This document shows positions 7,289 through 62,621 of a DNA stretch of 64,000 nucleotides, in pieces. The notes beneath the pieces are model-generated. The model was not told where the DNA came from. It did not search any database and was given only the letters and a program-made list of their open reading frames with translations. The stretch's first letter is position 1; each line of letters starts with the position of its first letter. The stretch lies in NCBI RefSeq assembly GCF_001866075.3, contig NZ_CP063356.1:1230164-1294163 (forward strand), read 5' to 3'. The DNA comes from Anaerobacillus isosaccharinicus (GTDB lineage Bacteria; Bacillota; Bacilli; Bacillales; Anaerobacillaceae). The position numbers and the translations under genes are program-made.

Positions 7289-7388
7289 AATGTAGAATGT
7301 AAAATGTATAATGTAGAATTTTTGAAAGTAAAAGCTTCGAAGCAATTGCCGGGAGCATTTTACATTTTACATTCTACATTTTACATTT
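7289..7388. repeat. Heptamer inverted element H1 (TGTARAA arms, GCTTCGAAGC core)
   Basis: Left arm AATGTAGAATGTAAAATG and onwards (7289-7320), core AAGCTTCGAAGC (7332-7343), right arm CATTTTACATTTTACATTC and onwards (7356-7388). The arms are tandem 7-bp units TGTA(G/A)AA in opposite orientations, so the RNA would fold into a long hairpin. The right arm abuts the flhO stop codon. It lies inside the flhO-flhP operon. Confidence 0.9.
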
Positions 7389-8208
7389 ATCCAAGTCTTC
7401 CTATCTCGTTCGCGGCTTTTTCCATGCTGCGATCGTAGGCTTGTAGTACTTTTTGGTTGGCTTCAAAGGCGCGGAATGCGGTCATCATTTCTGACATGGT
7501 CTGGCCTGTATCAACGTTGGAACGTTCGATAAAGCCTTGTTGTAGTTGATATGACACATTACCATTACCAATTGCTGTCACAACAGGTTGTCCACCTTCG
7601 TAGCGAAGTAAACCATTTCCTTCTTTTACGAGTTGGTCTGGATCGGCAACAAAGGCAATGTTAATTTGGCCAAAATTGTTTCCAGCCTCATTTAAAATAA
7701 CGCCTTCTCGTGTCACCTGAAAGTCCTCGTTCCCAACATTCATCCGCGCACCTTGGGCATTTAGGACATAAAATCCTTCACTCGTCGTCAAGAAGCCTTG
7801 TCCATCTATTGTAAAGTTTCCGTTTCTTGTGTAACGGATCTCACCTGTTTGATTTTCTACGGTAAAAAATAATCCTCCAGGTCGGCCTGCTTCATTATTA
7901 GGCACTAAGCCTTGAAGAAGAGCCACGTCTGTACTGTTATCCGTTTGGTGGATATCTCCTTGGCGGAAATTCATCGTACGTTCTTGCAAATAAACTCCCG
8001 TACTTAATTCTCCAACATGATGAGACTTTCCAAGCGGTCGATTGTCAACACCCATCGCTTTAATGAGCATATTTGGAAATGCGCGTAATGATGCATCATC
8101 AGCTCTATAGCCTGGTGTATTTACGTTAGCCATATTGTTTGTTAACATTTCTTGGCGTCGTTGCTGAGCTATCATCCCGGCAGCAGACGTATAAAATCCA
8201 CGGATCAT
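7387..8208 (-). CDS. flhO: Flagellar rod/hook-basal-body protein FlhO (FlgF/FlgG-like)
   Basis: A proximal partner of FlhP in the flagellar rod. I place the start at ATG 8208 (MIRGFYTSAAGM), nine bases after AAGG; a GTG three codons upstream overlaps the ribosome site. The N-terminal MLTNNMANVNTPGYRADD is the standard flagellar rod signature, and the C-terminal ERSNVDTGQTMSEMMTAFRAFEANQKV matches the other end of the family. It is 273 residues, downstream of mbl as in B. subtilis. Confidence 0.93.
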   Translation of the reverse strand: MIRGFYTSAAGMIAQQRRQEMLTNNMANVNTPGYRADDASLRAFPNMLIKAMGVDNRPLGKSHHVGELSTGVYLQERTMNFRQGDIHQTDNSTDVALLQGLVPNNEAGRPGGLFFTVENQTGEIRYTRNGNFTIDGQGFLTTSEGFYVLNAQGARMNVGNEDFQVTREGVILNEAGNNFGQINIAFVADPDQLVKEGNGLLRYEGGQPVVTAIGNGNVSYQLQQGFIERSNVDTGQTMSEMMTAFRAFEANQKVLQAYDRSMEKAANEIGRLG

Positions 8209-8339
8209 ATCTTTCACCCTTTTTAAATGCGATTAATTATGTAGTTGTTGTTGGAGCAGATCAGAAATGCAACGGAGCAATGCCCAGAAACACTCAACAC
8301 TTTACACTCTACACTGTATATATATCGGCCAACACGCCT

Positions 8340-8470
8340 TCAAATGTTAATTGTAATATGTAGTAAATTTAGCAAAAAATGCTTCTAACCTCATTATGTA
8401 AGATCTCAGGATTAGATGCTTCAAAGCATCACCCTCATAATTCTACATTTTACATTCTACATTCTACATT
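8340..8470. repeat. Heptamer inverted element H2, left arm degenerate
   Basis: Core GATGCTTCAAAGCATC (8415-8430) and a clean right arm of TTCTACATTTTACATTCTAC units (8440-8470) abutting the mbl end. The left arm (about 8341-8370) is recognisable only in parts (ATATGTAGTAAA). It lies between mbl and flhO; the rest of the 8209-8340 gap holds another short TTTACACTCTACAC stretch and nothing else clear. Confidence 0.75.
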
Positions 8471-8474
8471 CACC

Positions 8475-9479
8475 CTAGTACTTATATCTCCGTTTCGAGA
8501 TCTTGTCCAAGTTTTCAAGTAAGATACCTGTTCCTTTTGCCACACATTGCATTGGCTCGTCCGCAATTAAGACAGGAACTTTTAATTCTTCTGCTAATAG
8601 AAGATCGATTCCGTGAAGTAATGCGCCGCCTCCTGTTAGAATAACGCCACGGTCAATAATGTCAGCTGAAAGCTCTGGTGGTGTTTGTTCTAGGACGCTT
8701 TTTGAAGCTTGTACAATATGGGAAATCGGCTCTTCAAGTGCTTTCTGTATCTCTTCTGAGTATACGGTAATCGTACGTGGAAGTCCACTGACTAAATCAC
8801 GTCCGCGAATGTCAATTTCTTCTTTTCGACTGCCTGGAAAAACGGTAGCCACTTGAAATTTGATTTGTTCTGCTGTACGTTCACCGATTAAAAGCTTATA
8901 CTTCTTCTTCACGTAGTTTAAGATTTCGTGATCGAACCTGTCCCCTGCGATCTTAATTGAAGAGGCGGTGACAATATCGCCCATTGATAATACAGCAACA
9001 TCTGTTGTCCCACCGCCTATGTCTACGACCATGTTACCGCTCGGTTGGTAAATATCCATGCCTGCTCCAATTGCTGCAACTTTCGGTTCTTCCTCAAGAT
9101 ACACGTTCTTACCGCCACTCTTTTCTGCAGCCTCGCGAATTGCTTTTTGCTCAACAGATGTAATGTTCGTTGGGCAACAAATCAAAATTCTCGGTTTTGC
9201 AAAAAAACTTCTTACATTAACTTTGTCTAAAAAGTGCTTTAACATCGATTCTGTTAAATCAAAATTCGCAATAACTCCATCCTTCATCGGACGAAGGGCA
9301 ACGATGTTCCCTGGTGTACGACCGACCATGCGGAACGCCTCATCACCAACTGCCAATACTTTACTCGTTTGTGTATCTATTGCAACAACTGAAGGTTCAT
9401 TTAAGACAATCCCTCTTCCTCTTACATGAACGAGAACATTTGCTGTTCCTAAATCAATACCAATGTCCCTGCCAAACAT
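8475..9479 (-). CDS. mbl: MreB-like actin homologue Mbl
   Basis: A cytoskeletal ATPase that organises lateral cell-wall synthesis. It is 334 residues with the actin-fold signatures IGIDLGTANVLV (phosphate 1), VVDIGGGTTDVAVLS (phosphate 2) and ILTGGGALLHGIDLLL (adenosine). Position directly after spoIIID and before flhO identifies it as Mbl rather than MreB/MreBH. The start ATG has GGGAGG nearby. A 112-bp spacer separates it from spoIIID. Confidence 0.95.
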   Translation of the reverse strand: MFGRDIGIDLGTANVLVHVRGRGIVLNEPSVVAIDTQTSKVLAVGDEAFRMVGRTPGNIVALRPMKDGVIANFDLTESMLKHFLDKVNVRSFFAKPRILICCPTNITSVEQKAIREAAEKSGGKNVYLEEEPKVAAIGAGMDIYQPSGNMVVDIGGGTTDVAVLSMGDIVTASSIKIAGDRFDHEILNYVKKKYKLLIGERTAEQIKFQVATVFPGSRKEEIDIRGRDLVSGLPRTITVYSEEIQKALEEPISHIVQASKSVLEQTPPELSADIIDRGVILTGGGALLHGIDLLLAEELKVPVLIADEPMQCVAKGTGILLENLDKISKRRYKY

Positions 9480-9591
9480 GAATTTTCCTCCCTGCTTTTT
9501 GTATCCGTTTCGTCATCATTTATTAGTTTATATCTAATGTAATATTTTATCATATTTTGTCAGTGCAGGGATAATTTTTTTCTAAAAAACT

Positions 9592-10583: not shown

Positions 10584-10668
10584 CTCTAGGAACTGCACCT
10601 AAACTATTGTACGACTCCTCCATTATTACAGCCTTTTTCGGGTAGTACAGCGATCGATTTAATCTCAA

Positions 10669-11432: not shown

Positions 11433-11450
11433 TCATGGATAGGTTATTCA

Positions 11451-15567: not shown

Positions 15568-15761
15568 CTAATCCCCCCATACCTGTTTGTGTTCTATAAT
15601 AGTTGTTTGAATTTTCTTAATTTTAGCAATAATTGTATTATTACAGATTTGTTTTTTAAAAACAAGTGAGTTTTTTCACTTCTAGTGAAATTTTTTTTGA
15701 CAAAAAATGCGCTTTAAAGGGGTGAAGGGATAAAATGGGGTTTGGTTAAATGCTTCGGTTC

Positions 15762-16020
15762 GGCTTATAAATGCATTGATTTGGCTTATAAATGTTTGAG
15801 TTTGGCTTATAAATGACGGATTCGGCTTATAAATATTTGAGTTTGGCTTATAAATGCCGGGTTTGACTCGTAAAATAGGGTTCGGATGGTAAATTTGGGT
15901 TCCGGGCATCATTGAACTTGGAGTTTGGACAATAAATTCGATTTCGGACAATAAACCATGGTGTTTGGACAATAAAATTCGATTTCGGACAATAAAGAGC
16001 AGATTTTGGACATTAAAACA
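15762..16020. repeat. Array with about 21-bp period, locus 2 (about 12 units)
   Basis: Units begin at 15762, 15783, 15804, 15824, 15845, 15865, 15884, 15927, 15946, 15967, 15987 and 16008, spaced 19-21 bases except for one double interval. The first five start GGCTTATAAAT, the next two drift (GACTCGTAA, GGATGGTAA) and the last five are GGACAATAAA or GGACATTAAA. The unit spacing is not always a multiple of three, which argues against coding. The rest of the 15568-16117 gap holds the upstream region of the 58-aa gene and the spoIIQ terminator. Confidence 0.85.
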
Positions 16021-31908: not shown

Positions 31909-32040
31909 AAATGTAGAATGTAGAATGTAAAATGTTTGAAAGAAGCGCTCTGATGTATTAAAGAAGAAAGATTTAAGGGAAGATACCTTCGAAGCATAGA
32001 CCCACAATAATTCTACATTTTACATTTTACATTCTACATT
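31909..32040. repeat. Heptamer inverted element H3
   Basis: Left arm AAATGTAGAATGTAGAATG and onwards (31909-31935), core with CCTTCGAAGCATAG (31986-31999), right arm TTCTACATTTTACATTTTAC and onwards (32011-32040). It lies between nuoA and atpC, immediately beyond the atpC terminator, so atp transcripts should end before it. The 31713-31908 interval shows nothing else. Confidence 0.9.
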
Positions 32041-32042: not shown

Positions 32043-32533
<491 letters not shown>

Positions 32534-39567: not shown

Positions 39568-39664
39568 TAATTAATTGTGAATTTTGAATTGTGAATTAGT
39601 GAACGCATAGTTACGAGGAGATATACTCAAAAAATTCATAATTCATATTACCAAATTCATAATT
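39568..39664. repeat. AATTGTGAATT / AATTCATAATT inverted repeat upstream of atpZ
   Basis: Left arm ATTGTGAATTTTGAATTGTGAATTA (written in two parts, 39573-39598) and right arm AATTCATAATTCATATTACC, AAATTCATAATT (39635-39664). The architecture is like the TGTARAA elements, but the unit sequence differs. It lies between the promoter and the atpZ start, so it would be in the atp mRNA leader. Confidence 0.7.
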
Positions 39665-39930: not shown

Positions 39931-40155
39931 TTATAATGTAAAATTTAGAATGTAGAATGGTTTAGATAACGCTTCGAAGCTTGACTTCCCACGGTCTACT
40001 AATTTCTGTAATTTTACCTCTCGCAACCACAACTATACAATTTTTTATTTAATTATAAAATGCATTGGTGGAAATAAAACTTCAATTAAAATACTCCCAC
40101 CAATTTTTGCATTCTACATTTTACATTTTACATTTTACATTCTCCATTCTACATT
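39931..40155. repeat. Heptamer inverted element H4, enlarged
   Basis: Left arm ATAATGTAAAATTTAGAATG and onwards (39931-39959), core CGCTTCGAAGC (39970-39980), right arm CATTCTACATTTTACATTTT and onwards (40110-40155). At about 225 bp it is one of the longest copies; about 130 bases of unrelated sequence lie between core and right arm. Its right end overlaps the stop codon of the subtilase (40154-40156). Confidence 0.85.
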
Positions 40156-42409
40156 ACCTTATCAGCATGTTATGTCCTGATATTTTCTCTGTATCTTCAC
40201 CAATGTAAATCATTGTTTCGATTAAGTCTTCTTTACCTTCTTTTTTCGCATAGACAAGTGTTTTGTATAAACCTTCTTCTAGTTGAAGCTCGTCTAGTTC
40301 TACTTCAAGTAGACCGCGATCAACATTTTCTTTTACATCAAGGTACTGAATAAATTGGAATGTGTCTGGATCGTAAAGGGCAATTCCCACCTCTTCAGCG
40401 CCTCCTGGTAAGTACATCTCATAGCGATATTGCCCTTGTTCATCACCAAATTCAAAGGAAAAGGCCATTAACCTTGGATAATTCGGTTCTTCGATAAAAA
40501 ACATATATGGAACTCGAACTGGGTCCCTCCCACCTTCAACAATAAACTCTCCATAGTGAATTCCTGATTGAAAAACACCTGGTAAGATATCAATTGTAAT
40601 TGGAACTTTTCTTTCTTCACCAGGTTTTAATGTTATGGCGAAAGGAACTTTCCATTGAACACCGTCTGGAACGACAAATGGTGGCTTAACATGGTATGTT
40701 CTCACTTTTTGAGAACTGTTTTTTATTGTGATCTCAACATCTTTTTTATGCCTCGATTGTTCCCTTGTCCACTTTCCAAACCCTACTGTCCCAGGATAAA
40801 CTAGCGTCTCAGCGTAAACTGCTTTCGCTACTTGGATACGCCCTGTACCCTGTTCATGCGGTGAATATGGCATCCCATCCTTATCTTCAATCGGTTTTGC
40901 CGTATTCATAATTGCTGCCTTTACTTCCTCTGGTGTCCAGTCAGAATGCGCTTGTTTCACTAATGCGGCTGTTCCTGCGACATGGGGGGCAGACATACTC
41001 GTACCATTTAAGCCTAGATACCCTTTTGGAATTGTACTATCAATGGCTACGCCTGGGGCAACAACATCAGGCTTGACCCCCCACGAGTGGGTGACTGGTC
41101 CCCTTGAACTAAATGGTGCAATTTGGTCTTCTTCTTTTCGGTAAATGGTGCGAAGATAATTTTTCTCTTTTAAATCAAGTTTATCTTTTAACCATTCGCC
41201 GTCCTCTTTTGAAATGGATACTACTGGAATGTCTAATTGCATTTCTAGTGATCCCATAAATTCGCCTGGCGTGTTATTGTAAATTATCACGCCACCAGCA
41301 CCAGCTATTTGCGCTGATTTCGCTTTTTCAAAAAAAGGAATGACGCCCCTTTTTATAAGAACGAGTTTGTTTTTGACTTCTTTCATATCTTCCATTCGAC
41401 CGAGACCTACTTCTTTGATCGGTAAATCTCTCTTAAATGTCCATGGTTTTGAACCAACCATCATATTAAGGGCAATTTCTCGCTCTTCACTTTCAAACGT
41501 TAAATAAGGTACTTTTAAAGGAGGTGTCGACGCTCCAACTGATATCGCCTTTAACGATGTCCCTGGTGAACCGACCGTCCACATATTTGGACCACTATTC
41601 CCGTTTGAGGTAACAGCAATCACACCTTTTTCGACAGCTTTATCGAGCGCAATACTCGTCGGCCAGTCAGGTCCATTCACTGTGTTTCCTAATGACAAGT
41701 TTATAATATCAACGCCGTCCTCTACAGCTTTTTCAATGGCTTCAATTACTTGTTCGGTTGTCCCTTTTCCACCAGGACCTAAAGCTCTGTAGGCGTAAAT
41801 CTCGGCTTCCGGAGCAACACCTTTTATTTTTCCGTTGGCAGCAATAATTCCCGCTACGTGAGTTCCATGAATTGTAGACAGTCCTTGTTCTTTCGTTGTC
41901 TCCATCGGATCGCCATCATCATCAATGACATCGTAACCACCTTTGAAGTTTTTCTTTAAATCAGGGTGGTCATAGTCGATACCCGTATCGATAACAGCAA
42001 TTTTAATTCCTTTACCCGTCAAGCGTTGTCCTTTTTTATCAAGTTTGCCACGGATATGGTCGCCACCAATAAACGGGACACTTTCATCCAAAGTCACTTC
42101 ATATGTCCGTAACGGATCAATACGTTTAATGCCCGCAACCCCTTCAAGAAGCTCCACATCCTTCTTTTTTAGTTGCATTGAAAAACCTGTAAATAACGAC
42201 TGAAACATTTTTCGCATTTGGCTATTTGGTAATTTCCCTTTTATCTTCGCCAGTATTTCATCCGGATTACCATCCACCTCTACCATAACAACAGTCTCTT
42301 CCTCAGCGTTTTCATTGTGAATTGGAGGGCGCTCTGGAAATTTAGCAGCTAGAACAGGCTGTATAACACTTAATGAAAAAATGATCGTTAACAAACATAT
42401 TTTTTTCAT
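40154..42409 (-). CDS. Secreted subtilisin-like serine protease with PA insert (Vpr-like)
   Basis: Extracellular S8 protease of about 751 residues from ATG 42409 (MKKICLLTIIFSL). Signal peptide; I9-type propeptide (about 40-110, VVMVEVDGNPDEIL); catalytic Asp (AVIDTGIDYDHPDL), His (IHGTHVAGII) and Ser (NGTSMSAPHVAGTAAL); a PA domain inserted between His and Ser (LVLIKRGVIPFFEKAKSAQ, GAGGVIIYNN). The C-terminal domain of about 190 residues is beta-rich (FnIII-like). The nearest good ribosome site GGAGGG is 14 bases before this ATG, which is long. An IS is inserted just upstream, so expression may have changed. Confidence 0.92.
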   Translation of the reverse strand: MKKICLLTIIFSLSVIQPVLAAKFPERPPIHNENAEEETVVMVEVDGNPDEILAKIKGKLPNSQMRKMFQSLFTGFSMQLKKKDVELLEGVAGIKRIDPLRTYEVTLDESVPFIGGDHIRGKLDKKGQRLTGKGIKIAVIDTGIDYDHPDLKKNFKGGYDVIDDDGDPMETTKEQGLSTIHGTHVAGIIAANGKIKGVAPEAEIYAYRALGPGGKGTTEQVIEAIEKAVEDGVDIINLSLGNTVNGPDWPTSIALDKAVEKGVIAVTSNGNSGPNMWTVGSPGTSLKAISVGASTPPLKVPYLTFESEEREIALNMMVGSKPWTFKRDLPIKEVGLGRMEDMKEVKNKLVLIKRGVIPFFEKAKSAQIAGAGGVIIYNNTPGEFMGSLEMQLDIPVVSISKEDGEWLKDKLDLKEKNYLRTIYRKEEDQIAPFSSRGPVTHSWGVKPDVVAPGVAIDSTIPKGYLGLNGTSMSAPHVAGTAALVKQAHSDWTPEEVKAAIMNTAKPIEDKDGMPYSPHEQGTGRIQVAKAVYAETLVYPGTVGFGKWTREQSRHKKDVEITIKNSSQKVRTYHVKPPFVVPDGVQWKVPFAITLKPGEERKVPITIDILPGVFQSGIHYGEFIVEGGRDPVRVPYMFFIEEPNYPRLMAFSFEFGDEQGQYRYEMYLPGGAEEVGIALYDPDTFQFIQYLDVKENVDRGLLEVELDELQLEEGLYKTLVYAKKEGKEDLIETMIYIGEDTEKISGHNMLIR

Positions 42410-42439
42410 ACTTATCCGAATTTCCCTCCTTGTAATTAA

Positions 42440-44324
42440 ATAGACTCTCGGCATTTGCCGAGCCTTGTGGCTCAAGGTTTTCTTGAACCAATTTATTTGT
42501 ATCCCTCCTATTTCTAGGTGGGATTTTTACTTTAGTTTTCTTCTTCAATTGGAAATTAATTGTTGAAAAATATCATAAAAAAACTAAAAAAACACTTGAC
42601 TTTTTAGTGGAACCCCAATAATCGCCGAGGAGGAATTGACTTCCTAACAATACGGTGAAATGGGGGATTTAAATGAAACCTGCGCTAATACCACATATCT
42701 CATATCAAAACTTCGTTTTAGACCAATTAAATACTCATTACTCAGGCGGTATACTGACTCTCGTACAAAAAGATTGGACTATTATCTCGAAGTTATGGAT
42801 CACGGATCTTTCGTTTACCACTACGTGGCTTCATGATTCATATTCAGTTAAAGGTCCTGAGCCACGTGATCCTGCTTCCATGCTTCGCTCTTATCTTTTG
42901 TGTTTATTGACAAGTCCGACCCTGAGTATTACAGAATGGGTGAACCAACTCCATCGTGTTCCTCTTTACACGATCCTTAGCGGCTTTGAACCTGGGGATG
43001 TTCCAGGTGTCGGTACTTTTTATGACTTCTTCAGACGGCTATCAGGTTTTGAGAAGGCTAATGTAAAACCTTTTATTAAGCTCAAACGAAAAAAGAAGAA
43101 GAAGAAAAAACCGAAAAAGGGTGAAAAAGCAACTCCTAGAAACCCTGGTATTATTAGAAAATTAGTGGATCGTCATTTACGCAATGGCTCAAAACAAAAA
43201 CAATTGCCGGGAGATCAATTATACGCGTTTTTTCAATCTCAATTTCTTGAAGTTTCAGCGAGATTGGGTTTGCTTGGGGATCCCCATTCCCTTGGTGTTG
43301 TTGGAGATGGGACACCCGTGGAAACAGCGAGATACCCAAGGAGCAAACCTATTTGTGATTGTAGTGCCCAAGGACTAACGAATTGTACTCATCCTCGTCG
43401 ATATTCTCAACCTGACATCGACTCAGGTTGGGATAGTTCAAGGGAGAGGTACTTCAACGGATATCATCTCTACATGATATCCACTAGCGATAGCCAATAC
43501 GACTTGCCGCTATATCCACGGCTGCATCCTGCTTCCCGGCATGATTCAGTCAGCCTAGTGGTTGGTTCAATTGAATTTTCGCAACGGTACACCTTGGGCA
43601 CAATTGATAAAATCCTTCTCGATGCCGCACATGATGCAGAACCGATTTACGAATTACTGGACCATCATAATGTGGAACCATTTATTGATCTTAATGTTCG
43701 AACAAAGAAAAACTTCAGTACGCAAAGTGATATTCAGATTTCTCCCCTAGGCGTTCCTATTTGTCCAATTGGAATGGAAATGAAACCCAATGGGTTTGAC
43801 AAATCTCAAAACCGCCAAAAGTGGCGTTGTCCACTAGCTTGCGGAACAAAAAATACATGTTCCACTCCGTGTTCTAAAGCGAAGTATGGCCGGACATTTC
43901 ATACGTTTAAGCAAGATAATCTTCGTCTGTTCACTAAAACACCGAGGTCTTCTGAAAAGTGGAAACTGATTTATAAACGAAGAACTTCAGTTGAACGTTC
44001 GAACAAAAGAGAAAAAGTCGACTATCACTTAGAATCTGGGCGTCATCGCTCTACAAAAATGTGGTATGTCCGCTTATATTCAATCATGATGTGTCAACAC
44101 ATAGATGCTTGGTACAGTAGTCAGAAAGAGACTTTGAACATCCAAGAAATCATCTTTTCTAAGAGCGCCTAGTCATTTTTAAAAAATAGCAGCCGTAGGC
44201 TTATTTGGTATACACTTTTTTGAAAACACTATGAAAACACATCACTTTGCTGTCCTGTTAATGAAATTCCCAGTAAATTTTTTACAAATCTTCGATAAAC
44301 TCATCATTTATTCCGAGAGTCTAT
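42440..44324 (+). mobile_element. Complete 1.9-kb insertion sequence with 15-bp terminal repeats and TTAA duplication
   Basis: Left end ATAGACTCTCGGCAT (42440-42454); right end ATTCCGAGAGTCTAT (44310-44324), the inverse with one mismatch. TTAA flanks both ends (42436-42439 and 44325-44328), consistent with a 4-bp target duplication. It carries one intact DDE transposase. The left end holds two short hairpins (CTCGGCATTTGCCGAG) before the transposase. The intact ends and frame suggest recent insertion. It lies about 30 bases before the subtilase start codon. Confidence 0.85.
42673..44172 (+). CDS. DDE transposase (IS4/IS5 superfamily, IS1182-like)
   Basis: 499 residues, full length. An N-terminal helical region with DPASMLRSYLLCLLTSP, a very basic stretch (KLKRKKKKKKKPKKG, about 136-150), and the catalytic core D212 (VVGDGTPVET), D317 (IDKILLDAAHDAEP) and E441 (RRTSVERSNKREK). 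A Cys-rich segment (CPLACGTKNTCSTPC, about 386-400) sits before the last Glu. ATG 42673 follows GGGGGA. A possible promoter is TTGACT (about 42597) with a weak -10. The exact family is uncertain without a database. Confidence 0.88.
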   Translation: MKPALIPHISYQNFVLDQLNTHYSGGILTLVQKDWTIISKLWITDLSFTTTWLHDSYSVKGPEPRDPASMLRSYLLCLLTSPTLSITEWVNQLHRVPLYTILSGFEPGDVPGVGTFYDFFRRLSGFEKANVKPFIKLKRKKKKKKKPKKGEKATPRNPGIIRKLVDRHLRNGSKQKQLPGDQLYAFFQSQFLEVSARLGLLGDPHSLGVVGDGTPVETARYPRSKPICDCSAQGLTNCTHPRRYSQPDIDSGWDSSRERYFNGYHLYMISTSDSQYDLPLYPRLHPASRHDSVSLVVGSIEFSQRYTLGTIDKILLDAAHDAEPIYELLDHHNVEPFIDLNVRTKKNFSTQSDIQISPLGVPICPIGMEMKPNGFDKSQNRQKWRCPLACGTKNTCSTPCSKAKYGRTFHTFKQDNLRLFTKTPRSSEKWKLIYKRRTSVERSNKREKVDYHLESGRHRSTKMWYVRLYSIMMCQHIDAWYSSQKETLNIQEIIFSKSA

Positions 44325-44390: not shown

Positions 44391-44584
44391 TGCTAGAATG
44401 CAGAATGTAAAATGTAAAATGATGTTGGTTATGCTTCGATGCGCTTTAGTGTAGAGTGGTGCGGGTGAATTCTTTGAAGCCAAAAAAAACCATACCACCT
44501 TAAATTCAGGTGATACGGCTCTTTAAAAACATCATTGAGGTACTCTCAACAATTCTACATTTTACATTTTACATTTTACACTCT
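44391..44584. repeat. Heptamer inverted element H5
   Basis: Left arm TGCTAGAATGCAGAATGTAA and onwards (44391-44421), core ATGCTTCGATGCG (44431-44443), right arm AATTCTACATTTTACATTTT and onwards (44551-44584). The wecB terminator lies inside it, between core and right arm. The right arm contains the wecB stop codon (44576-44578). The rest of 44325-44390 shows nothing. Confidence 0.85.
44482..44520 (-). terminator. Terminator of wecB
   Basis: On the minus strand AGCCGTATCACCT pairs with AGGTGGTATGGTT (G-U pairs allowed) across a 7-base loop, followed by eight Ts. It lies 56 bases past the stop, beyond the repeat arm. Confidence 0.85.
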
Positions 44585-45718
44585 AAACGATCTCGGTCTT
44601 TCTCCTTGTTTAAAGTGGTGGAGGATCGCTTCGACGATACGTTTTGAAGCAAAACCATCTCCATATGGGTTTGAGGCCTTCGCCATTGTTTTATAGGCTT
44701 GGTCGTCTACTAGAAGTTGTTTTGCAAGGTCATAAATCGTTTCTTCATTCGTCCCTGCTAGTTTTAACGTTCCAGCCTCAATTCCCTCTGGGCGCTCTGT
44801 CGTGTCTCTTAAAACGAGAACAGGAACTCCTAGAGACGGAGCTTCTTCTTGGACTCCACCAGAATCAGTAAGGATAATATGAGCTCTTGACGCGAAGTTA
44901 TGGAAATCTAATACTCCTAGAGGCTCAATTAATTGAATGCGTGGATCATTGCCTAATACTTCATCGGCAATTTCTCGGACCACTGGATTTAGATGAACAG
45001 GATAGACAACTTGTAAATCTGGGTGTTCTGCCACTAAACGTTTAATCGCACGGAACATGTTACGCATCGGTTCACCTAAATTTTCACGACGATGAGCAGT
45101 TAATAAGAGAAGACGGTCATCACCTAGTTTATCTAACACTTCATGTTGATAGGTCTCAGAAACCGTCGTTTTTAAAGCGTCAATGGCTGTATTTCCTGTT
45201 ATGTAGATTGTATCTTCTTGTTTATTTTCTGCTCGTAGATTGTCAGCAGATTTTTCTGTAGGTGAAAAATGAAGGTCAGCCATCACTCCAGTTAACTGGC
45301 GATTCATTTCCTCAGGAAACGGAGAATATTTATTCCACGTCCGAAGTCCTGCCTCCACATGACCAATGGCAATTTGATTGTAGTATGCAGCCAGGCTCGC
45401 AACAAATGTCGTCGTTGTATCACCATGGACAAGAACTAAATCTGGCTTTACCTCTTTCATCACTTGATCAAGCCCTTGAAGGACATTCACTGTCACATCG
45501 AGAAGAGTTTGTCTTGCTTTCATAATATTTAAGTCAAAGTCTGGCTTCACACCAAAAATTGATAACACTTGATCTAGCATTTCACGGTGTTGCCCGGTCA
45601 CAGTAACAATTGATTCGATTTGATCTTTGTATTTTTCAAGTTCTAATACTAAAGGACACATCTTAATAGCTTCAGGACGAGTACCAAAAATCGTCATCAC
45701 TTTAATTTTCTGATCCAT
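44576..45718 (-). CDS. wecB: UDP-N-acetylglucosamine 2-epimerase (non-hydrolysing)
   Basis: Converts UDP-GlcNAc to UDP-ManNAc for wall teichoic acid linkage units or polysaccharide (MnaA/YvyH in Bacillus). 380 residues. Diagnostic segments are MTIFGTRPEAIKMCPL, HVEAGLRT, HRRENLG and ILTDSGGVQEEAPSLGVPVLVLRDTTERPEG. Its position next to upp and atp is common in Bacillaceae. Start ATG 45718 has AAGGGG upstream. Its last codons lie in a heptamer repeat arm (GTG TAA then AATG). Confidence 0.95.
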   Translation of the reverse strand: MDQKIKVMTIFGTRPEAIKMCPLVLELEKYKDQIESIVTVTGQHREMLDQVLSIFGVKPDFDLNIMKARQTLLDVTVNVLQGLDQVMKEVKPDLVLVHGDTTTTFVASLAAYYNQIAIGHVEAGLRTWNKYSPFPEEMNRQLTGVMADLHFSPTEKSADNLRAENKQEDTIYITGNTAIDALKTTVSETYQHEVLDKLGDDRLLLLTAHRRENLGEPMRNMFRAIKRLVAEHPDLQVVYPVHLNPVVREIADEVLGNDPRIQLIEPLGVLDFHNFASRAHIILTDSGGVQEEAPSLGVPVLVLRDTTERPEGIEAGTLKLAGTNEETIYDLAKQLLVDDQAYKTMAKASNPYGDGFASKRIVEAILHHFKQGERPRSFRV

Positions 45719-45735
45719 GATTAAACCCCTTTTTA

Positions 45736-45833
45736 AAATGTAAAATTCAGAATGTAGAATGTAAAATGATTTGGGCTTTGCTTCAAAGCTAAACCGAAAA
45801 AATTTTACATTTTACATCTTACACTCTACATTA
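45736..45833. repeat. Heptamer inverted element H6
   Basis: Left arm AAATGTAAAATTCAGAATG and onwards (45736-45768), core TTTGCTTCAAAGC (45777-45789), right arm TTTTACATTTTACATCTTAC and onwards (45803-45833). It fills the gap between upp and wecB, starting a few bases after the wecB ribosome site. Confidence 0.9.
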
Positions 45834-45835: not shown

Positions 45836-46498
<663 letters not shown>

Positions 46499-47010: not shown

Positions 47011-47115
47011 TTTATTAGCGAAAATCTTTCTTTTATTAGCCAAACTGAAAGACTTATTAGCCAAAACCAAGCTTTTATTAGCCAAACTAACGCATTTATT
47101 TGCCAAACGACAAAA
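47011..47115. repeat. Array with exact 21-bp period, locus 3
   Basis: Five units start at 47011, 47032, 47053, 47074 and 47095, each TTTATTAGCCAAACN plus six variable bases (the third begins CTTATTAGCC). In the plus frame each gives a heptapeptide FISQTxx. No ribosome site precedes the frame. It ends in the glyA terminator. It is the reverse orientation of loci 1 and 2 (TTATAAGCC versus TTATTAGCC). Confidence 0.9.
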
Positions 47116-49241: not shown

Positions 49242-49381
49242 TTAGAATGTAAAATGTAAAATGTTGAATGTAAAATGTTGAATGTAGAATGTAAAATGTA
49301 GAATTCTTGAAGGTTTAGCTTCGTAGCATTTTCTTAATAGCAATTCTATTCTTCATTCTGAATTTTACATTTTACATTTTT
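49242..49381. repeat. Heptamer inverted element H7, longest left arm
   Basis: The left arm (49242-49304) has about nine units of TGTARAA/TGTTGAA; the core is TAGCTTCGTAGC (49316-49327); the right arm ends TTTTACATTTTACATTTTTG. It begins just upstream of the ywlG ribosome site and ends next to the rpiB terminator. Confidence 0.9.
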
Positions 49382-49433: not shown

Positions 49434-49871
49434 CTATTTTTCTAATAAAGTGATTTTCTCAACTCGACGGGCGTGACGGCCACCTTCGAATTCTGTTTGT
49501 AACCAGACTTTTGCAACTTCTCTTGCTAACCCCGGACCAATTACTCGCTCACCCATAGCTAAAATGTTACTATCGTTATGCTCTCTCGTTGCTTTTGCAC
49601 TAAACGTATCATGAACTAGTGCGCAACGAATTCCGCTGATTTTATTAGCTGCGATGCTCATACCAATACCTGTGCCACAAATTAAAATGCCACGGTCTAC
49701 TTCTCCACTAGCAACTTTCTTCGCTACTGGTAATGCATAATCAGGATAGTCGACAGACTCGTCACAAGCACAGCCAACATCCTCATATTGGATGTTCAAT
49801 TCATCCATTAGATTTTTAATTTCTGCCTTAATATTTATTCCACCATGATCTGAACCAATTGCTACTTTCAT
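49434..49871 (-). CDS. rpiB: Ribose-5-phosphate isomerase B
   Basis: Interconverts ribose-5-P and ribulose-5-P. 145 residues from ATG 49871 (MKVAIGSDHGG), preceded by AGAGAGG; an open frame runs upstream to 49919. The catalytic Cys is in ILICGTGIGMSIAANK, and HDTFSAKATREHNDSN is the second signature. In this context (ywlF position) RpiB is standard; LacA/B-type activity is unlikely. Confidence 0.95.
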   Translation of the reverse strand: MKVAIGSDHGGINIKAEIKNLMDELNIQYEDVGCACDESVDYPDYALPVAKKVASGEVDRGILICGTGIGMSIAANKISGIRCALVHDTFSAKATREHNDSNILAMGERVIGPGLAREVAKVWLQTEFEGGRHARRVEKITLLEK

Positions 49872-49899
49872 GTTAAGCCTCTCTTCTGTAAAAATATAA

Positions 49900-51195
49900 T
49901 TATGTTGTGAATTTCCCAATTGTCTTTTGTAATTCGTTAGCTTGAGTCGCTAGAATTTCAGCCGATGCTGCAATTTCTTGCATAACTGCTGTTTGCTCTT
50001 GAGTCGCAGAAGAAACTTCTACTGTCCCTGCTGATGTTTCTTCAGCAATAGCCGCTACTTCTTGAGATTCTTTCGTAGTAACCCTAATTGATTGTAATTG
50101 ACGATTAATAATCTCTGTTATATCTTGAACCGCATTTGCAACTTCATTCACTGATTTTGTCATATCCGCAATAGCTTCGTTTGTATGAGAACCTTTTACT
50201 GCTTCTTTATTGGCAACCTCTACTTGTTTAGAGATTTGTGAAACAACATTAGCTACCTCGTCTTGAATATTTTTAATCAACTGAGAAATACCTTGAACGG
50301 CTTTTGAACTCTCATCAGCTAGTTTACGAACTTCATCAGCAACAACTGCAAACCCTCGACCTTGATCACCAGCCCTTGCAGCTTCAATTGATGCGTTTAG
50401 TGCTAGTAAGTTTGTTTGTTCAGCAATATCCCCAACTAAAGAAATAATCTCGCCTACTTTTCTAGCATGAGATTCTAAACGACCTACTACTGTTAATGAA
50501 TTTTGATTGTCTTCTGCTAGTTGATTAATCCCTGATACGAGGGAATGAATCACTTGTTTACTTTCTTCTAGCGTTTCTACCATTTCAATTGATAGTTGTC
50601 TTGAAGCGTTCGCTCGTTCTTGCACTTGATCTGCCAACTGCATTACATCTTCCATTGACTCTGCCGTATTTTGAATAGCACTAGCTGAATTTTCAGCTCC
50701 AACAGCAATTTCATCAACTGTTCGCCCAATATTTTCAGCTTGAAGAGCTGCAGCTTGAGATGCCGTTTTGATTTCACTTACTTTTTCATTTGTTAACTCG
50801 AAGTTTGTCCCAATATCAGAAACCATTCCTCGTAGGTTATGAACCATTTCTTGATATGCTAAACCTAAGGCACGAATTTCATCATCAGATTTTGTCACTT
50901 CAACATCAACTCTAATATCGCCATTAGCAACCTTTCGTGATGCTGCTTCTAGCTTTGTTAAAGGTTTTGTAATTAACCCAGCTGCAAAGAACCCAAGAAT
51001 TCCACACCAAAAGACACCAAGTACTAATGTAATGACTGTGAAAATATCCTCGTTCACACCTAGTTGGCTACCTAATAATTCGCTTAAGTAAAAAATAAAA
51101 AAGGCACTTGTTGCATAAGTAACTGCCGCAACTGTTGAAATACCTACAACCATTTTCTTTCGTAGACTAAATTTGTATTTCTTCTTCTCGTTCAT
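49900..51195 (-). CDS. Methyl-accepting chemotaxis protein without an external sensor domain
   Basis: 431 residues: two membrane helices (about 14-36 and 48-72) with only about ten residues between them, a HAMP domain (about 73-125, [19 protein letters not shown]) and the MCP signalling domain with the tip [38 protein letters not shown]. It lacks a periplasmic-type ligand domain, so it may sense membrane state, redox/proton force or a partner. It is not in the B. subtilis version of this neighbourhood, so it may be an insertion here. GGGAGGCGCG precedes the ATG. Confidence 0.9.
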
Positions 51196-52674: not shown

Positions 52675-52742
52675 AGGATCTCCCCCCTAGTACATGCTAC
52701 TCTACCCTATGCACGTCCGAGGGGAATTATGTGAATTTATAA

Positions 52743-52838
52743 AGTAGAATGTAGAATGTAAAATGTAGAATTCCTTAGGTTTCGCTTCGTTGAATAACCA
52801 AACTAATTCTACATTCTGCATTTTAAATTTTACATTTA
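52743..52838. repeat. Heptamer inverted element H8, reaching into ywlC
   Basis: Left arm AGTAGAATGTAGAATGTAAA and onwards (52743-52772), core TTTCGCTTCGTTGAA (52780-52794), right arm AATTCTACATTCTGC, ATTTTAAATTTTACATTTAA (52805-52838). The right arm encodes the last residues and the stop of ywlC. Confidence 0.9.
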
Positions 52839-53869
52839 ACAACGTCCCCACCTGCTGCTTTTGTGAGGCGGTTCATGATGGCTTTGCCGACGCCTTCTTC
52901 TGGGAAGGTTTCGCTGAAGATGATATCTAGGTCATACTCATCGAATTTTCTTAAGACTTCATAGAGGTGTTGCGCGACTGATGATAAGTCTTTTACTGAA
53001 CCACACGGTAAAATAACATCCGCTTCATATTCAACTTGATTTTCAACTGTCGTCAGTATACCTACTTTTTTGCCTTTTGCTTTTTCAGCTAAAACTTGTT
53101 GCTGTAAAAAAAGCGGATTTCCTTCAACTAAAAATAATTTTGCCTTTGGAGCATAGTGTTTATATTTTAACCCTGGCGATTTTGGAGCTTGTCCATCTTC
53201 TTCAAGCGCTGGATCAACTGAAACTGGCCCAATAACTTCTTCAAGCTGTTCCTTTGTAACACCACCCGGGCGTAAAATCATTGGAATTTCTGTTGTACAG
53301 TCAAGTACCGTCGACTCGACTCCCACACCCGTAGCCCCACCATCGACAATCCCAGCAATTTTCCCATTTAGATCATCAAATACATGTGCAGCTGTTGTTG
53401 GACTCGGTTTACCTGAAACATTGGCACTTGGTGCTGCAATCGGTAAGTTTGCTTCAGCAATTATGGCAAGAGCCACTGGGTGATCCGGCATTCGAACAGC
53501 AACTGTGGATAATCCAGCCGTGACATTTTCTGCGATTCCCTCACCTTTGTTCAATACTAGCGTTAATGGTCCCGGCCAAAAGGCATTTATAAGTTTGTTG
53601 GCATGCTCTGGTATATCTTGAACAAGCGGCTGTAATTGTTCCATTTTAGCAATGTGAACGATTAGTGGGTTGTCAGAAGGTCTTCCTTTTGCTTGAAAAA
53701 TTTTGGCTACTGCCTCGTAAGAATACGCGTTAGCTCCTAAGCCATAGACAGTTTCCGTAGGGAAGGCTACGACTTCATTTTCTCTTATCCACATGGCAGC
53801 TTCTTTTATTTGTGGAAAACTCAAATTCACATTTTCAACTAACCACTTCTTTGTTTCAATGATAGCCAT
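52823..53869 (-). CDS. ywlC: Threonylcarbamoyl-AMP synthase (YrdC/Sua5 type)
   Basis: First step of tRNA t6A modification. 348 residues: YrdC domain (about 15-205, AFPTETVYGLGANAY, KGRPSDNPLIVHI, SANVSGKPSPTTA) plus the C-terminal Sua5 domain (about 235-345, PGLKYKHYAPKAKLFLV). The last codons (AAATGTAAAATTTAA, giving KCKI-stop) are part of the heptamer element, so the C-terminus seems to have been reshaped by it. AAGGAG lies before ATG 53869. Confidence 0.94.
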   Translation of the reverse strand: MAIIETKKWLVENVNLSFPQIKEAAMWIRENEVVAFPTETVYGLGANAYSYEAVAKIFQAKGRPSDNPLIVHIAKMEQLQPLVQDIPEHANKLINAFWPGPLTLVLNKGEGIAENVTAGLSTVAVRMPDHPVALAIIAEANLPIAAPSANVSGKPSPTTAAHVFDDLNGKIAGIVDGGATGVGVESTVLDCTTEIPMILRPGGVTKEQLEEVIGPVSVDPALEEDGQAPKSPGLKYKHYAPKAKLFLVEGNPLFLQQQVLAEKAKGKKVGILTTVENQVEYEADVILPCGSVKDLSSVAQHLYEVLRKFDEYDLDIIFSETFPEEGVGKAIMNRLTKAAGGDVVKCKI

Positions 53870-55287: not shown

Positions 55288-55427
55288 TAATTTAAAATGT
55301 AGAATGTAGAATTAATTGAGGGCTTTGACTGGAAGCATTACATAGGAATTAAAAATTCATCCTTTACCGCTCCGCTTCGAAGCAACACTTTCTCCAATTT
55401 TACATTTTAAATTCTACATTCTACATT
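55288..55427. repeat. Heptamer inverted element H9, reaching into prmC
   Basis: Left arm ATAATTTAAAATGTAGAATG and onwards (55288-55313), core CCGCTTCGAAGC (55373-55384), right arm AATTTTACATTTTAAATTCTAC (in parts, 55396-55427). The final codons of prmC (TTA ATG TAG) are the end of the right arm. Confidence 0.9.
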
Positions 55428-56290
55428 AAAGTAGCAAATACCATCCTATCTTTCCCGTTGATGTCAAAGACGATTTCGGTGTGAGCTTTTGGGAATTGGC
55501 TTTTGATTAGAGCTTCTACTTGTTTGCTTTGGCCGGCACCGACTTCAAAAGCGATAATCCCTTTTTCGTTTAAAACGAGTGGAATTTGGGCAATTAATTT
55601 TTCATATAGCTCATACCCTGATATGCCTCCAACTAAGGCTAATGTAGGTTCATGATCACGAACATTTTTTGCAAGCAAATGAAAGTCTGCTTCTGATATA
55701 TAAGGTGGGTTTGAGACAACAACATCAACCTTTTTTTTCTGCTCAATTAAAGGTTGGAGCAAATCTCCTTCTAAAAATTGAACATTGGCAGCTAATCTTT
55801 GAGCGTTTTTCATTGCTACCATCGTAGCTTCAGGAGAAATATCTACCGTTGCAACTGAGAGTTTTGAGTTTTCTAAGGATAGTGAAATAGCAATGGCACC
55901 ACTGCCTGTACCTATATCAACAACTGAAATTGATGATTGATCAGAGAAAACTTTGCTGATGCGTTGTAAAAGTCCTTGAACTAACTCCTCCGTTTCAGGC
56001 CGAGGAATTAAGACGTGTTCATTTACAACAAATTGCCTGCCATAGAAATCCTCGACACCAGTAATGTGCTGGACAGGAGTTCCCTCTGCAACCCTATTTA
56101 AAGCATCTTTAAACGCTTTTTCGACGTCTAATGGAAGCTCATCTTGAAGCATACTAAAAAGCTTGGCACGATCGATCTCAAGGTAATGCTTTAATAAAAT
56201 TTCCGCAATTGGATGTTCAAGCTCATTTTCAGTTAAAAAAGAAGAAGCCCAGCGGAGGGCTTCGAAAATTTTCATTGGTTGCTTAGCCAT
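55421..56290 (-). CDS. prmC: Release factor glutamine methyltransferase PrmC
   Basis: Methylates the GGQ glutamine of release factors. 289 residues: helical N-terminal domain, SAM-binding VVDIGTGSGAIAISLSLE, and the NPPY substrate-binding motif in VVVSNPPYISEAD. It overlaps the prfA stop by one base. The last residues come from a heptamer element (L-M-stop). Confidence 0.96.
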   Translation of the reverse strand: MAKQPMKIFEALRWASSFLTENELEHPIAEILLKHYLEIDRAKLFSMLQDELPLDVEKAFKDALNRVAEGTPVQHITGVEDFYGRQFVVNEHVLIPRPETEELVQGLLQRISKVFSDQSSISVVDIGTGSGAIAISLSLENSKLSVATVDISPEATMVAMKNAQRLAANVQFLEGDLLQPLIEQKKKVDVVVSNPPYISEADFHLLAKNVRDHEPTLALVGGISGYELYEKLIAQIPLVLNEKGIIAFEVGAGQSKQVEALIKSQFPKAHTEIVFDINGKDRMVFATLM

Positions 56291-59130: not shown

Positions 59131-59145
59131 TTCTTTATTTTTTGA

Positions 59146-59391: not shown

Positions 59392-59524
59392 ACTTGTCAT
59401 CTCCTTTTTGCCCTGAATCTCTTCGAAACAGAGTTAACTAGGTGCTATTTTAAGTAACACCTTTTTCACACATGACGAAATTATATCAACTTAAAGTTCG
59501 TTTTGCAACTGTAATTTTGTGGGT

Positions 59525-59764
59525 AAAGCTCCTAGACCTCGAGGTCAAATAACCTGGAAGATAAAAAGTGAAAAAGCACACTTTTTTCTTCCAGAACATT
59601 TGCTTGTCGGGGCTAATCAAGGCGCTTACGCTTTTCGATTTGTCTAGCTTTAGCGCCTAGCCCCTCGAGGTCAAATAACCTGGAAGATAAAAAGTGAAAA
59701 AGCACACTTTTTTCTTCCAGAACATTTGCTTGTCGGGGCTAATCAAGGCGCTTACGCTTTTCGA
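59525..59764. repeat. Two tandem copies of the CTCGAGG hairpin repeat
   Basis: Copies at about 59525-59639 and 59640-59764, period 126 bp. Each has CCTCGAGGTCAAATAACCTG, an inner hairpin (CTGGAAGATAAAAAGTG with CACTTTTTTCTTCCAG), AGAACATTTGCTTGTCGGGGC, and TCAAGGCGCTTACGCTTTTC. Outer segments AGCGCCTAGCCCC and GGGGCTAATCAAGGCGCT also pair. The second copy ends at the rho stop codon. It matches 32620-32796. Confidence 0.9.
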
Positions 59765-61036
59765 TTAAGATCGAACTTTTCGGCCAGCTTTATCTTCTTC
59801 AATTGAAGCAAAAAACTCTTCGTTTGATTTCGTTGCTTTAATTTTGCGAATGAAATGGTCTACATATTCTGAAGAGTCTTTCATTGTCTTACGGATTGCC
59901 CATAGGTTTTCAAGCTGTGATTTAGGTAAAAGAAGCTCTTCACGTCTTGTACCTGAACGTAAAATATCAATCGCTGGGAATATGCGTCGTTCTGCAAGCT
60001 TACGATCAAGATGAAGTTCCATATTTCCAGTTCCTTTAAATTCCTCGTAAATAACCTCATCCATACGTGAACCGGTATCTACTAATGCTGTAGCTAAAAT
60101 AGTTAAACTACCGCCTTCTTCGATGTTTCTCGCTGCACCAAAGAAACGTTTAGGACGATGGAATGCCGCTGGGTCAATACCACCAGATAGAGTACGTCCA
60201 CTTGGCGGAACCACTAAGTTATAAGCACGAGCTAAACGAGTAATGCTATCCATCAAAATAATCACGTCTTTTTTGTGCTCAACAAGACGCATGGCGCGTT
60301 CAAGAACAAGTTCAGCTACTTTGATGTGATTTTCAGGAACTTCATCAAACGTTGAGCTAACAACTTCTGCATCTACCGAACGTTCGATATCCGTTACTTC
60401 CTCAGGACGCTCATCAATTAAGAGAACAATCAATTCCGCATCAGGATGATTGATTGAAATGCTATTAGCAACTTCCTTTAATAAGAGTGTTTTACCTGCT
60501 TTTGGAGGAGCCACAATTAAGCCACGTTGCCCAAACCCTACTGGAGAGATCATATCAATAATTCTCGATGAAACTTTTTCAGGAGCAGCTTCTAATTGGA
60601 TTTTCTTTTCTGGATATAACGGTGTTAATGCTGGAAAATGAGGGCGGCTTTTCGCTGTTTCTGGATCATCACCGTTAACAGCTTCTACATGAAGTAGTCC
60701 ATAAAAACGTTCATTTTCTTTAGGTTTTCTAACTTTCCCTGAAACTTTATCTCCGTTTCTAAGCTCAAATCTACGAATTTGCGAGGCAGAAATATAAATA
60801 TCCTCGGAGCTAGGTAGGTAATTAATTGGTCTTAAAAAGCCAAACCCTTCTGATGAAACGATATCTAATGTTCCTTCCATAAACATTAATCCATCTTCTT
60901 CTGCTTGTCCTTTTAAAATAGCAAAAATTAATTCTTTCTTTGTTAACTTGCTGTAAGAAGTTACCTTAAATTGTTTCGCTAATTCATATAACTCACGTAA
61001 CTTTTTAGTTTCTAATTCGGCAATATTTACTCCCAT
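59765..61036 (-). CDS. rho: Transcription termination factor Rho
   Basis: Hexameric RNA-dependent helicase. 423 residues from ATG 61036 ([17 protein letters not shown]); the frame continues to a GTG at 61048. N-terminal RNA-binding domain with GFGFLRP and [12 protein letters not shown] (about 60-90), Walker [15 protein letters not shown], Walker [17 protein letters not shown]. The stop codon directly abuts a hairpin repeat. Confidence 0.97.
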
Positions 61037-61048
61037 ATTTGACACCAC

Positions 61049-61489
61049 TTCTTTTTAATAGATTTTTTATATAGTAACGCACTAAAAATGCCTCTTGCAC
61101 ATAAAGAGAAAGAATAGATAAAAGTTCAAATTTTCATAATCGGAATTTATTTTTGAAAGAAAGGGTAAATGTTGTGTGAAGATAAAAACTGAGGTTCAGT
61201 TGTCTCTTAAGAAGATATTCAAAAAGAACATTTTGTAATGCCCTTAACTTTTTATAGCGCTCAAAACAACGAGTGAAACTAGTTCCTACTCGTACCCTTG
61301 TTTAATAATATCATGAAATTGTTGTTTTTCTATTAAACATATAGTTTCAATTATTATTTTAACCATATCTGCCACTCTTATTCAAGAGAATAGCTTTGAT
61401 TTTTAGATAGGGCCTCTCTATTTTTCTACTCTATTATAACTTAAAACTTGCTTATTGTAAAGAACGTTTGTTCGTTTATACAATTGAAA
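61049..61489. other. Intergenic region between glpX and rho
   Basis: About 440 AT-rich bases that would include the rho promoter and leader. I see no gene with a ribosome site. ATATTCAAAAAGAACA (about 61215) resembles one end of the M1/M2 repeats but has no partner. Confidence 0.4.
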
Positions 61490-61527
61490 AATGATAGAGT
61501 TTAGAGTAATAAACCCTCTAAACTCTA
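61490..61527 (-). terminator. Terminator of glpX
   Basis: A perfect 12-bp stem TAGAGTTTAGAG / CTCTAAACTCTA (61495-61506 and 61516-61527), then TCATTTTTC on the minus strand. Confidence 0.88.
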
Positions 61528-61536
61528 GTAAAACTA

Positions 61537-62502
61537 TTATTTAATAAATAGATCCGGCTTCTTTCTCAAGCTATGTTTTCCATCAATAAATCTTACTGTC
61601 CCTGATTTGGCACGCATAACAATTGATTGAGTGAAAGCAACCTCACCTTGATAGCGAACACCTTTTAATAATTCTCCATCAGTCACACCTGTAGCAGCAA
61701 AAATGCAATCGTCACCTTTAACTAGGTCATCCATAAGTAAAACTCGGTTTACATCATCAATGCCCATTTTTTTACAACGTGCTATTTCATCATCGTCTTG
61801 TGGAAGTAATCTACCTTGAAGTTCTCCGCCAATGCACTTAAGAGCAACGGCTGCCAAAACACCTTCAGGAGCTCCACCAGAACCTAACAAAATATCAACA
61901 CCTGTATCTTCAAAGGCTGTATTTATTGCCGCAGCCACATCGCCATCTTGCATAAGCTTAATTCTCGCACCAGCATCACGAATTTCTTGGATTAGTTTTT
62001 CGTGACGTTCACGTTTTAATATAGCTACGACAATATCTTCAATGTTTTTATTCTTTGCTTTTGCGACTGCTTGAAGGTTTTCGAGAACTGTAAAATCAAG
62101 GCTAACCTTTCCAACAGATTCAGGACCTACAGCTATTTTATCCATATACATATCCGGTGCATGAAGTAAGTTGCCATGATCAGCAACTGCTAAAACTGCT
62201 AAAGCATTCCACTCACCACAAGCAACAATGTTCGTTCCTTCTAAAGGATCTACTGCAACGTCTAATCGTGGTCCATAACCGTTTCCAAGCTTCTCACCTA
62301 TGTATAACATTGGAGCTTCATCCATTTCTCCTTCACCAATGACAACAGTGCCTTTCATTGGGATCGTATCAAACACGTCTCGCATCGCTTGTGTTGCTGC
62401 ATCATCTGCGTTATCTTTATCTCCTCTTCCCATCCAACGACCAGATGCGATCGCAGCCGCTTCCACAACACGAACAAGTTCCATTGTTAAACTTCTCTCC
62501 AT
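61537..62502 (-). CDS. glpX: Fructose-1,6-bisphosphatase, class II (GlpX)
   Basis: Gluconeogenic phosphatase, 321 residues. Metal and phosphate motifs [15 protein letters not shown] and VDPLEGTN are intact; [16 protein letters not shown] is the third family block. Position (ywjI) between rho and murAB agrees with B. subtilis. GGGGGAG precedes the ATG. Confidence 0.96.
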
Positions 62503-62520
62503 TACTACTCCCCCATTCTC

Positions 62521-62621
62521 TAATGTAGAATGTAAAATGTAGAATTTAGAATGATTTTAGCAACACTTCGAAGCTAAACCCACTCGAATTCTACATTCTA
62601 CATTCTGAATTCTACATTTTA
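62521..62621. repeat. Heptamer inverted element H10, reaching into murAB
   Basis: Left arm TAATGTAGAATGTAAAATG and onwards (62521-62552), core ACTTCGAAGC (62565-62574), right arm GAATTCTACATTCTACATTC and onwards (62586-62621). The murAB stop codon (62619-62621) is the last part of the arm. Confidence 0.9.

Follow-up and report, generated by a model that had tools for sequence, protein, structure and literature searches.

In a 64,000-nucleotide stretch of Anaerobacillus isosaccharinicus DNA (the window; NZ_CP063356.1, positions 1,230,164 to 1,294,163, designated G000:C1:1230164-1294163), ten sites, H1 to H10 (Table 1), carry tandem 7-bp units of the form TGTARAA, inverted around a short central sequence. 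Comparison of these sites with the source genome (G000; 5,227,144 bases in one contig) and with six further genomes of the same genus (G001 to G006, of which G001 and G003 are sister species) suggests that, on balance, they probably belong to an old, genus-restricted and non-autonomous family of imperfect palindromes with GCTTCGAAGC at the centre and arm units that turn over, similar to repetitive extragenic palindromes (REPs) or miniature inverted-repeat transposable elements (MITEs). We propose more tentatively, as a possibility short of a probable one, that fixed gene ends retain the design of the hairpin and that each species rewrites the arm heptamer genome-wide, both arms being rewritten together and held imperfect, with about two thirds of the rungs mismatched at the variable base.

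The exact TGTARAA dimer, TGTARAATGTARAA, has 32 copies in the window, whereas 100 dinucleotide shuffles yield 0.03 on average and never more than 1; genome-wide it has 448 matches, against 43 for the reversed pattern used as genome control. An earlier sequence-only reading of the window had described these inverted arrays as a ten-copy family. The arrays were confirmed at all ten sites, and nine of the ten elements are two-armed, with a plus array followed by a minus array. The number of copies was greatly underestimated: 114 TGTARAA clusters were found in 864 kb of the source genome, and scaling by the exact matches gives an estimated 190-200 clusters in the whole 5.2 Mb. The 864-kb sample consists of the window and 40 stretches, most of them picked for holding matches; four stretches chosen irrespective of matches contained 0, 0, 0 and 3 clusters.

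The typical element of the source genome is about 97 bp long and consists of four heptamers, an interior of about 37 bp with GCTTCGAAGC, and four inverted heptamers. Seventy elements with both arms within 160 bp were detected in the 864 kb by their arms alone, and they carry terminal inverted repeats, as MITEs do. Four units are present in 36 of the left and 40 of the right arms, the interior mostly measures 35-39 nt, and most elements end in AATGTA...TACATT. The interiors of 61 of the 70 contain GCTTCGAAGC with at most one mismatch, a match found in none of the shuffled interiors, while the flanking positions are less constant (38-71% consensus each, symmetrised and without gaps). The core varies between elements, being GCTTCAAAGC in H2 and H6, and interiors longer than 55 nt (59-147) occur in H3, H4, H5, H7 and H9. 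By eye, elements or arrays are nested inside others at L030:7231, L035:9867, L042:15207 and in H5, and some arrays are one-sided, without an inverted partner. Long uniform heptamer arrays of 13-17 units were also seen (G000:C1:3386327, G000:C1:3822174, G003:C10:377132 and G001:C42:240515), looking as recent slippage would predict. Two TGTARAA arrays of the source genome, L036:297-324 and L040:2528-2555, have near-identical flanks; since the L036 array lies about 90 nt past a 16S rRNA 3' end, both are probably located in rRNA operon spacers.

The elements are tightly associated with the 3' ends of genes. With genes called by a simple longest-open-reading-frame rule, 103 of the 114 clusters lie between genes, in agreement with the sequence-only reading (81 in tandem, 17 in convergent and 5 in divergent gaps), and for the other 11 no gap could be assigned. 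Divergent gaps are avoided (5 clusters versus 16-21 expected). That most copies follow a gene on its 3' side, as had been proposed, is correct and understates the case: at eight of the ten window sites the stop codon is inside the array or at most 6 nt away, the exceptions being H3 (45 nt) and H7 (57 nt). Random placement with respect to gene ends, named in that reading as one outcome that would speak against it, is not what the data show, as 36% of 115 stop-side edges fall no further than 5 nt from the stop codon on either side, compared with 6% after random placement in the same gaps. Start-side edges (n = 91) are nearly absent within 12 nt of the called start and peak at 12-30 nt (30% versus 9%); the elements thus occupy the room from the stop codon to the next ribosome-binding site. 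For the 78 gene ends that have an inward array close by, the array contains or overlaps the stop codon in 19 cases and comes within 2 nt of it in 24 more. The elements thereby set the stop codon, and hence the C-terminal residues, of some ordinary genes; in being extragenic, near gene ends and able to supply stop codons they resemble the GTAG type of REP element. After subtraction of the element, the tandem gaps have a median of 44 bp (n = 31), versus 86.5 bp in gaps without one, so many elements are probably inside operons. Stops in all frames were considered as a selected property and rejected: every unit class checked has an inward stop, and so do 53-100% of permuted heptamers, which means that the inward stops show nothing about selection.

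Many of the same sites are occupied in the closest relatives, mostly with other heptamers. In a tree built from 22 proteins of the window, identity is 89-90% for the close genomes G000, G003 and G001, and 81-85% for the more distant G002 and G004. At the gaps that could be mapped, an array or core is present in G003 at 7/9 element sites versus 1/23 other gaps (p 8e-5), and in G001 at 4/6 versus 0/16 (p 0.002). The TGTARAA trimer is found in G000, G001 and G003 only, and in none of G002, G004, G005, G006 or 34 genomes of other genera. G003 has the same design built from GAGTGTA, GAGTTTT and GAGTTAT, G001 from GAATTAT and GAATTGT, and G005 and G006 from GAGTKTT; G002 has GAAAGTA arrays with no evident core, and G004 has one TGTARAA-type element. 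Counts of AGCTTCGAAGC are 47 in G000, 21 in G001, 34 in G003, 18 in G005, 21 in G006, 0 in G002 and 2 in G004. The unit classes overlap between species, RAGTGTA and GAATTAT arrays being present in G000 too; several classes coexist in one genome, and one class dominates each genome. No period-7 array was seen at 80 named Bacillales loci around upp (1.58 Mb), a set from which the genus itself may be missing. Matches to the GCTTCGAAGC pattern in a genome of another genus (G031; 14 versus 1 for the control, L242-L254) were rejected as members of the family, being mostly an unrelated GC-rich repeat in which no heptamer arms were seen. A search of plasmids with H10 gave no match; in viral contigs, 14 stretches had a match.

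In G000 and G003 the two arms of an element usually carry the same type of unit, and yet arms avoid pairing perfectly. Two broad unit classes coexist in G003, and both arms are of the same class in 23 of 24 elements; in the source genome the unit type is shared by both arms in 67 of 73 cored two-armed elements, versus 55 with shuffled partners. At the A/G (R) position the source genome behaves differently: in-register units agree in 0.364 of 228 pairs, compared with 0.516 (sd 0.031) for swapped partners, so that arms in register are less alike than chance. The two arms do not vary independently at this position, whose G/A variation had already been noticed from the sequence. When units are numbered from the inner ends, the effect is located at register 0, is faint at -1 and is absent at other offsets; numbering from the outer ends makes it less marked and extends it over offsets -1 to +1. 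No element out of 56 matches at every one of the three inner rungs, where 8.0 would be expected, and stretches of at least 14 perfect pairs between arms number 3 versus 10.5 expected, while at the non-R positions the identity between arms is 0.894. Because the A/G patterns are diverse, the in-register mismatch is not one inherited pattern. Avoidance of the same sign, in permutation tests that throughout treat elements as independent, was obtained in G001 (n = 11, P 0.007) and in G005 and G006 together (n = 8, P 0.006), and within each G003 class the direction is the same and not significant (P 0.31 and 0.064). A comparison of arms mirrored about the centre, noisy because cores vary in length, was below chance in G000 (P 0.039) and without effect in G001 and G005. 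In G003 an element's own arms are more alike than swapped ones (mirror comparison P 0.0002; unit test likewise), which is explained by the coexistence of two unit classes in that genome.

The potential to form hairpins, another early proposal, is supported. Seven window elements were folded on the gene strand (H4, H5 and H7 being outside this set), and six gave z scores of -2.3 to -8.3; in the seventh, H8, the element was cut short. The mean energies of 55 typical elements are -27.3 and -28.1 kcal/mol on the two strands. An element of G003 (L011:2365-2470) gave a z score of -1.71 from a badly framed fold, which, like the shortened H8 fold, is no fair test.

These results are consistent with the following scenario. 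The elements, at that time probably mobile units able to form hairpins, would have arrived at gene 3' ends in the distant past, at places where an array that brings its own stop codons would be tolerated, and would now stay at fixed sites. Their arm units would turn over by tandem slippage combined with arm-to-arm copying, or through new elements inserting into older ones, a route beside which the nesting described above can be placed. Instability may be the reason for the loss of perfect palindromes, or mismatches may be required for the hairpin to be recognised. In transcripts the elements would fold into a stem-loop of about -27 kcal/mol that closely follows the stop codon and in many cases separates genes of the same operon; their most likely role would be in mRNA decay or in the differential expression of operon genes. 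If the arms are indeed rewritten at fixed hairpins, either a recognition factor that co-evolves or some form of copying directed at hairpin arms would be required; to our knowledge, neither has been described. The usual explanation of dispersed palindromes is that they are debris of transposition. In the present elements, location and design are maintained across species that differ in the spelling of the unit, and the arms measurably avoid pairing perfectly, so that a single genus makes two questions testable: how the dispersed repeats of one genome are homogenised, and by what selection perfect palindromes are disfavoured.

A number of observations weigh against an old mobile family kept at fixed sites. 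Site sharing is not significant in the more distant relatives, with an array or core at 1/8 element sites versus 0/23 others in G002 and at 1/7 versus 1/22 in G004. The comparison with empty sites in relatives, suggested at the outset, gave no clean one, because the intergenic DNA of the relatives is too diverged. With finer unit types the arms agree in just 10/21 elements of G003 (4.1 when shuffled), in 4/16 of G001 (4.7) and in 4/10 of G005 (3.0); agreement between arms is thus not shown in the last two genomes. Rungs of the A.C kind are more numerous on the gene strand (63) than G.U rungs (43; p 0.064), leaving strand-specific RNA pairing without support; 3'-end protection, one of the roles first suggested, is a possible function of the elements. 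Selection of an RNA hairpin through G.U pairs was accordingly rejected, the trend being opposite and the mismatch classes mixed within an element (42 same and 59 different, with 50.3 same expected). The shape of a MITE, another of the roles first suggested, does fit. No pair among the 55 typical elements reaches 90% identity (best 0.89, median 0.74), and the cores have a pairwise identity of 0.63 versus 0.54 for shuffled cores. As to target-site duplication, exact 5-nt flank matches occur in 4/70 elements (0.3 when shuffled), but these are four different AT-rich pentamers, two of them heptamer-like; exact matches of 4, 6, 7 or 8 nt occur in 0/70, although old duplications may have decayed. Matches to PF01797 (Y1 transposase) number 40, in six of the seven genomes of the genus, and none of the 25 loci examined carries an array or core within about 1.5 kb, other transposase families not having been searched. 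Recent transposition is therefore not supported. Favoured places that receive insertions repeatedly could likewise produce shared sites; ordinary jumping DNA alone hardly explains the same sites with a different heptamer spelling.

The conservation of the arms can also be read as a binding array, likewise among the roles first suggested, in which a genus-specific DNA- or RNA-binding protein would recognise the tandem heptamer, perhaps together with GCTTCGAAGC, and the unit would change as protein and sites co-evolve. Arm units that stay near consensus at six of seven positions while the core and its flanks have drifted, and the dominance of one unit class in each genome, are in line with this idea; however, detection by arms favours conserved arms, and several unit classes coexist in one genome, and we regard it as unlikely, if worth keeping in view. 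The stem-loops directly behind stop codons would also suit a new terminator or 3'-end processing hairpin that takes the place of ordinary intrinsic terminators. A terminator scan does find fewer of these in tandem gaps that hold an element (14/79 versus 103/265 without, p 4e-4), but convergent ends are alike (10/30 versus 34/102); moreover, among 24 terminators found alongside an element, 16 are located before it, 7 after it and 1 within it, and the shortness of the remaining tandem gaps suggests positions inside operons. Nor do the elements have the intrinsic terminator design of a GC-rich stem with a direct U-tract, their arms being AT-rich, and we consider this explanation quite doubtful.

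Slippage by itself, building heptanucleotide microsatellites wherever they are tolerated and with no part for hairpin or mobility, would account for the long one-sided arrays and for the prominence of period 7, which gives 58 arrays in 400 kb of selected stretches versus 0-2 for the other periods from 4 to 13. According to the accessible text of a survey of prokaryotes, heptanucleotides are the commonest repeat class and polymerase slippage was suggested (PMC4679880). Slippage alone explains neither the inverted pairs around a conserved decamer, nor the agreement of arm class in G000 and G003, nor the register-specific mismatch, and this explanation is disfavoured as improbable. Least probable of all, its membership largely refuted, is that these are GTAG-type REP elements moved by a REP-associated tyrosine transposase (RAYT). 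Like REPs, they are palindromes found outside genes in high copy number, the G000 unit includes GTAG, and the loss of RAYT cleavage upon changes that strengthen the palindrome, as reported in the accessible part of PMC3733652, parallels the avoidance of perfect pairing. However, GTAG is not fixed at one palindrome end: it is inside the units of G000, G002 and some of G003, and is absent from the GAATTAT and GAGTKTT arms of G001, G005 and G006. None of the 25 Y1 loci had an element, and a length of about 97 bp exceeds the 20-40 bp given there for REPs (PMC3733652).

The coordinates of the window elements are collected in Table 1. The genes that precede H1 to H10 are ordinary ones.

Table 1. Heptamer elements of the window. 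Positions are window coordinates; z scores refer to folds on the gene strand.
Element	Position	Arms and interior	Gene and stop codon	Hairpin z
H1	7289..7387	7291-7318 (left, + units), 7358-7385 (right, - units); core between	flagellar rod/hook-family gene 7387-8217(-); array 1 nt behind stop	-6.95
H2	8376..8470	right arm 8441-8468 good; core GCTTCAAAGC; left arm decayed	mreB-family gene 8475-9479(-); 6 nt behind stop	-2.26
H3	31910..32040	31912-31932, 32011-32038	atpC (ATP synthase epsilon) 32084-32521(-); 45 nt behind stop, terminator-like hairpin between (by eye)	-6.80
H4	39935..40155	39937-39957, 40105-40153; 147-nt interior with terminator-like hairpin (by eye)	subtilisin-like protease gene 40154-42475(-); right arm touches stop	
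H5	44397..44582	44399-44419, 44553-44580; interior with apparent second half-element (RAGTGTA-type, looks nested) and terminator-like hairpin (by eye)	wecB-family gene 44576-45718(-); stop inside array	
H6	45730..45832	45732-45766, 45803-45830	upp 45836-46465(-); 5 nt behind stop	-7.25
H7	49246..49378	49248-49303 (8 units), 49363-49376	rpiB 49434-49919(-); 57 nt behind stop, terminator-like hairpin between (by eye)	
H8	52741..52843	52743-52770, 52807-52841	threonylcarbamoyladenylate synthase gene 52823-53869(-); array contains stop	-0.59 (fold cut off right arm)
H9	55289..55427	55291-55311, 55398-55425; two half-cores in interior (by eye)	prmC 55421-56290(-); array contains stop	-4.17
H10	62522..62618	62524-62551, 62589-62616; typical 97-bp element	murA 62619-63908(-); 2 nt behind stop	-8.27
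GAATTGT-type array	39573..39603 (+)	separate heptamer array	same intergenic region as H4	

The gap of G003 that matches the separate array at 39573-39603 (G003:C17 near 161796) has a GAATTAT array, so the unit class is shared there. The window also contains a separate family of tandem repeats of about 21 bp with GGCTTATAAA, GGACAATAAA and TTTATTAGCC motifs, which show a period of about 42 bp as well (2369-2458, 15747-15860, 15919-16018 and 47012-47108). A search of the whole window against Rfam gave no match to the elements above the gathering threshold, the sole match being an L31 leader elsewhere (59401-59433), near which lies a perfect 126-bp direct repeat of 1.8 copies (59537-59766).

The sequence-only reading knew of no described element with this architecture, and with neither an Rfam match nor a description in the literature the statement holds so far, the literature covered being open-licence papers, which is no proof of absence. 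A match to a catalogued MITE or terminator family, the other outcome named there as speaking against the reading, likewise did not appear in Rfam or in these papers. Among known heptamer repeats are the cyanobacterial STRR heptanucleotide repeats and the heptamer hairpins of the tRNA-Leu intron P6b, the intron case also folding as a hairpin; these are not known to be dispersed gene-end palindromes with a conserved centre. The TAACTGA repeats of Beggiatoaceae and cyanobacteria are likewise intergenic tandem heptamers of period 7 with stops in all frames in one orientation, but in the accessible text a fixed heptamer is repeated directly, for the most part ahead of start codons, with a single inverted case and no mention of a core palindrome (PMC4679880). 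Similar in host and location are the MITE-like repeats bcr1-bcr3 of the Bacillus cereus group, intergenic Bacillaceae repeats found in untranslated regions and inside operons, of which bcr3 correlated with mRNA half-life; the accessible description, compared here rather than the sequences, includes no heptamer arms (PMC3446304). As far as the accessible part of PMC3733652 describes them, REPs and bacterial interspersed mosaic elements (BIMEs), with their RAYTs, differ from the present elements, which have no constant GTAG tag and no element-flanked RAYT in the loci examined, and have instead tandem heptamer arms and a unit that varies at shared sites. What both have in common is that they are high-copy extragenic palindromes near gene ends with termini that supply stop codons, GTAG termini often providing a TAG, and on the REP side cleavage depends on the palindrome being imperfect (PMC3733652).

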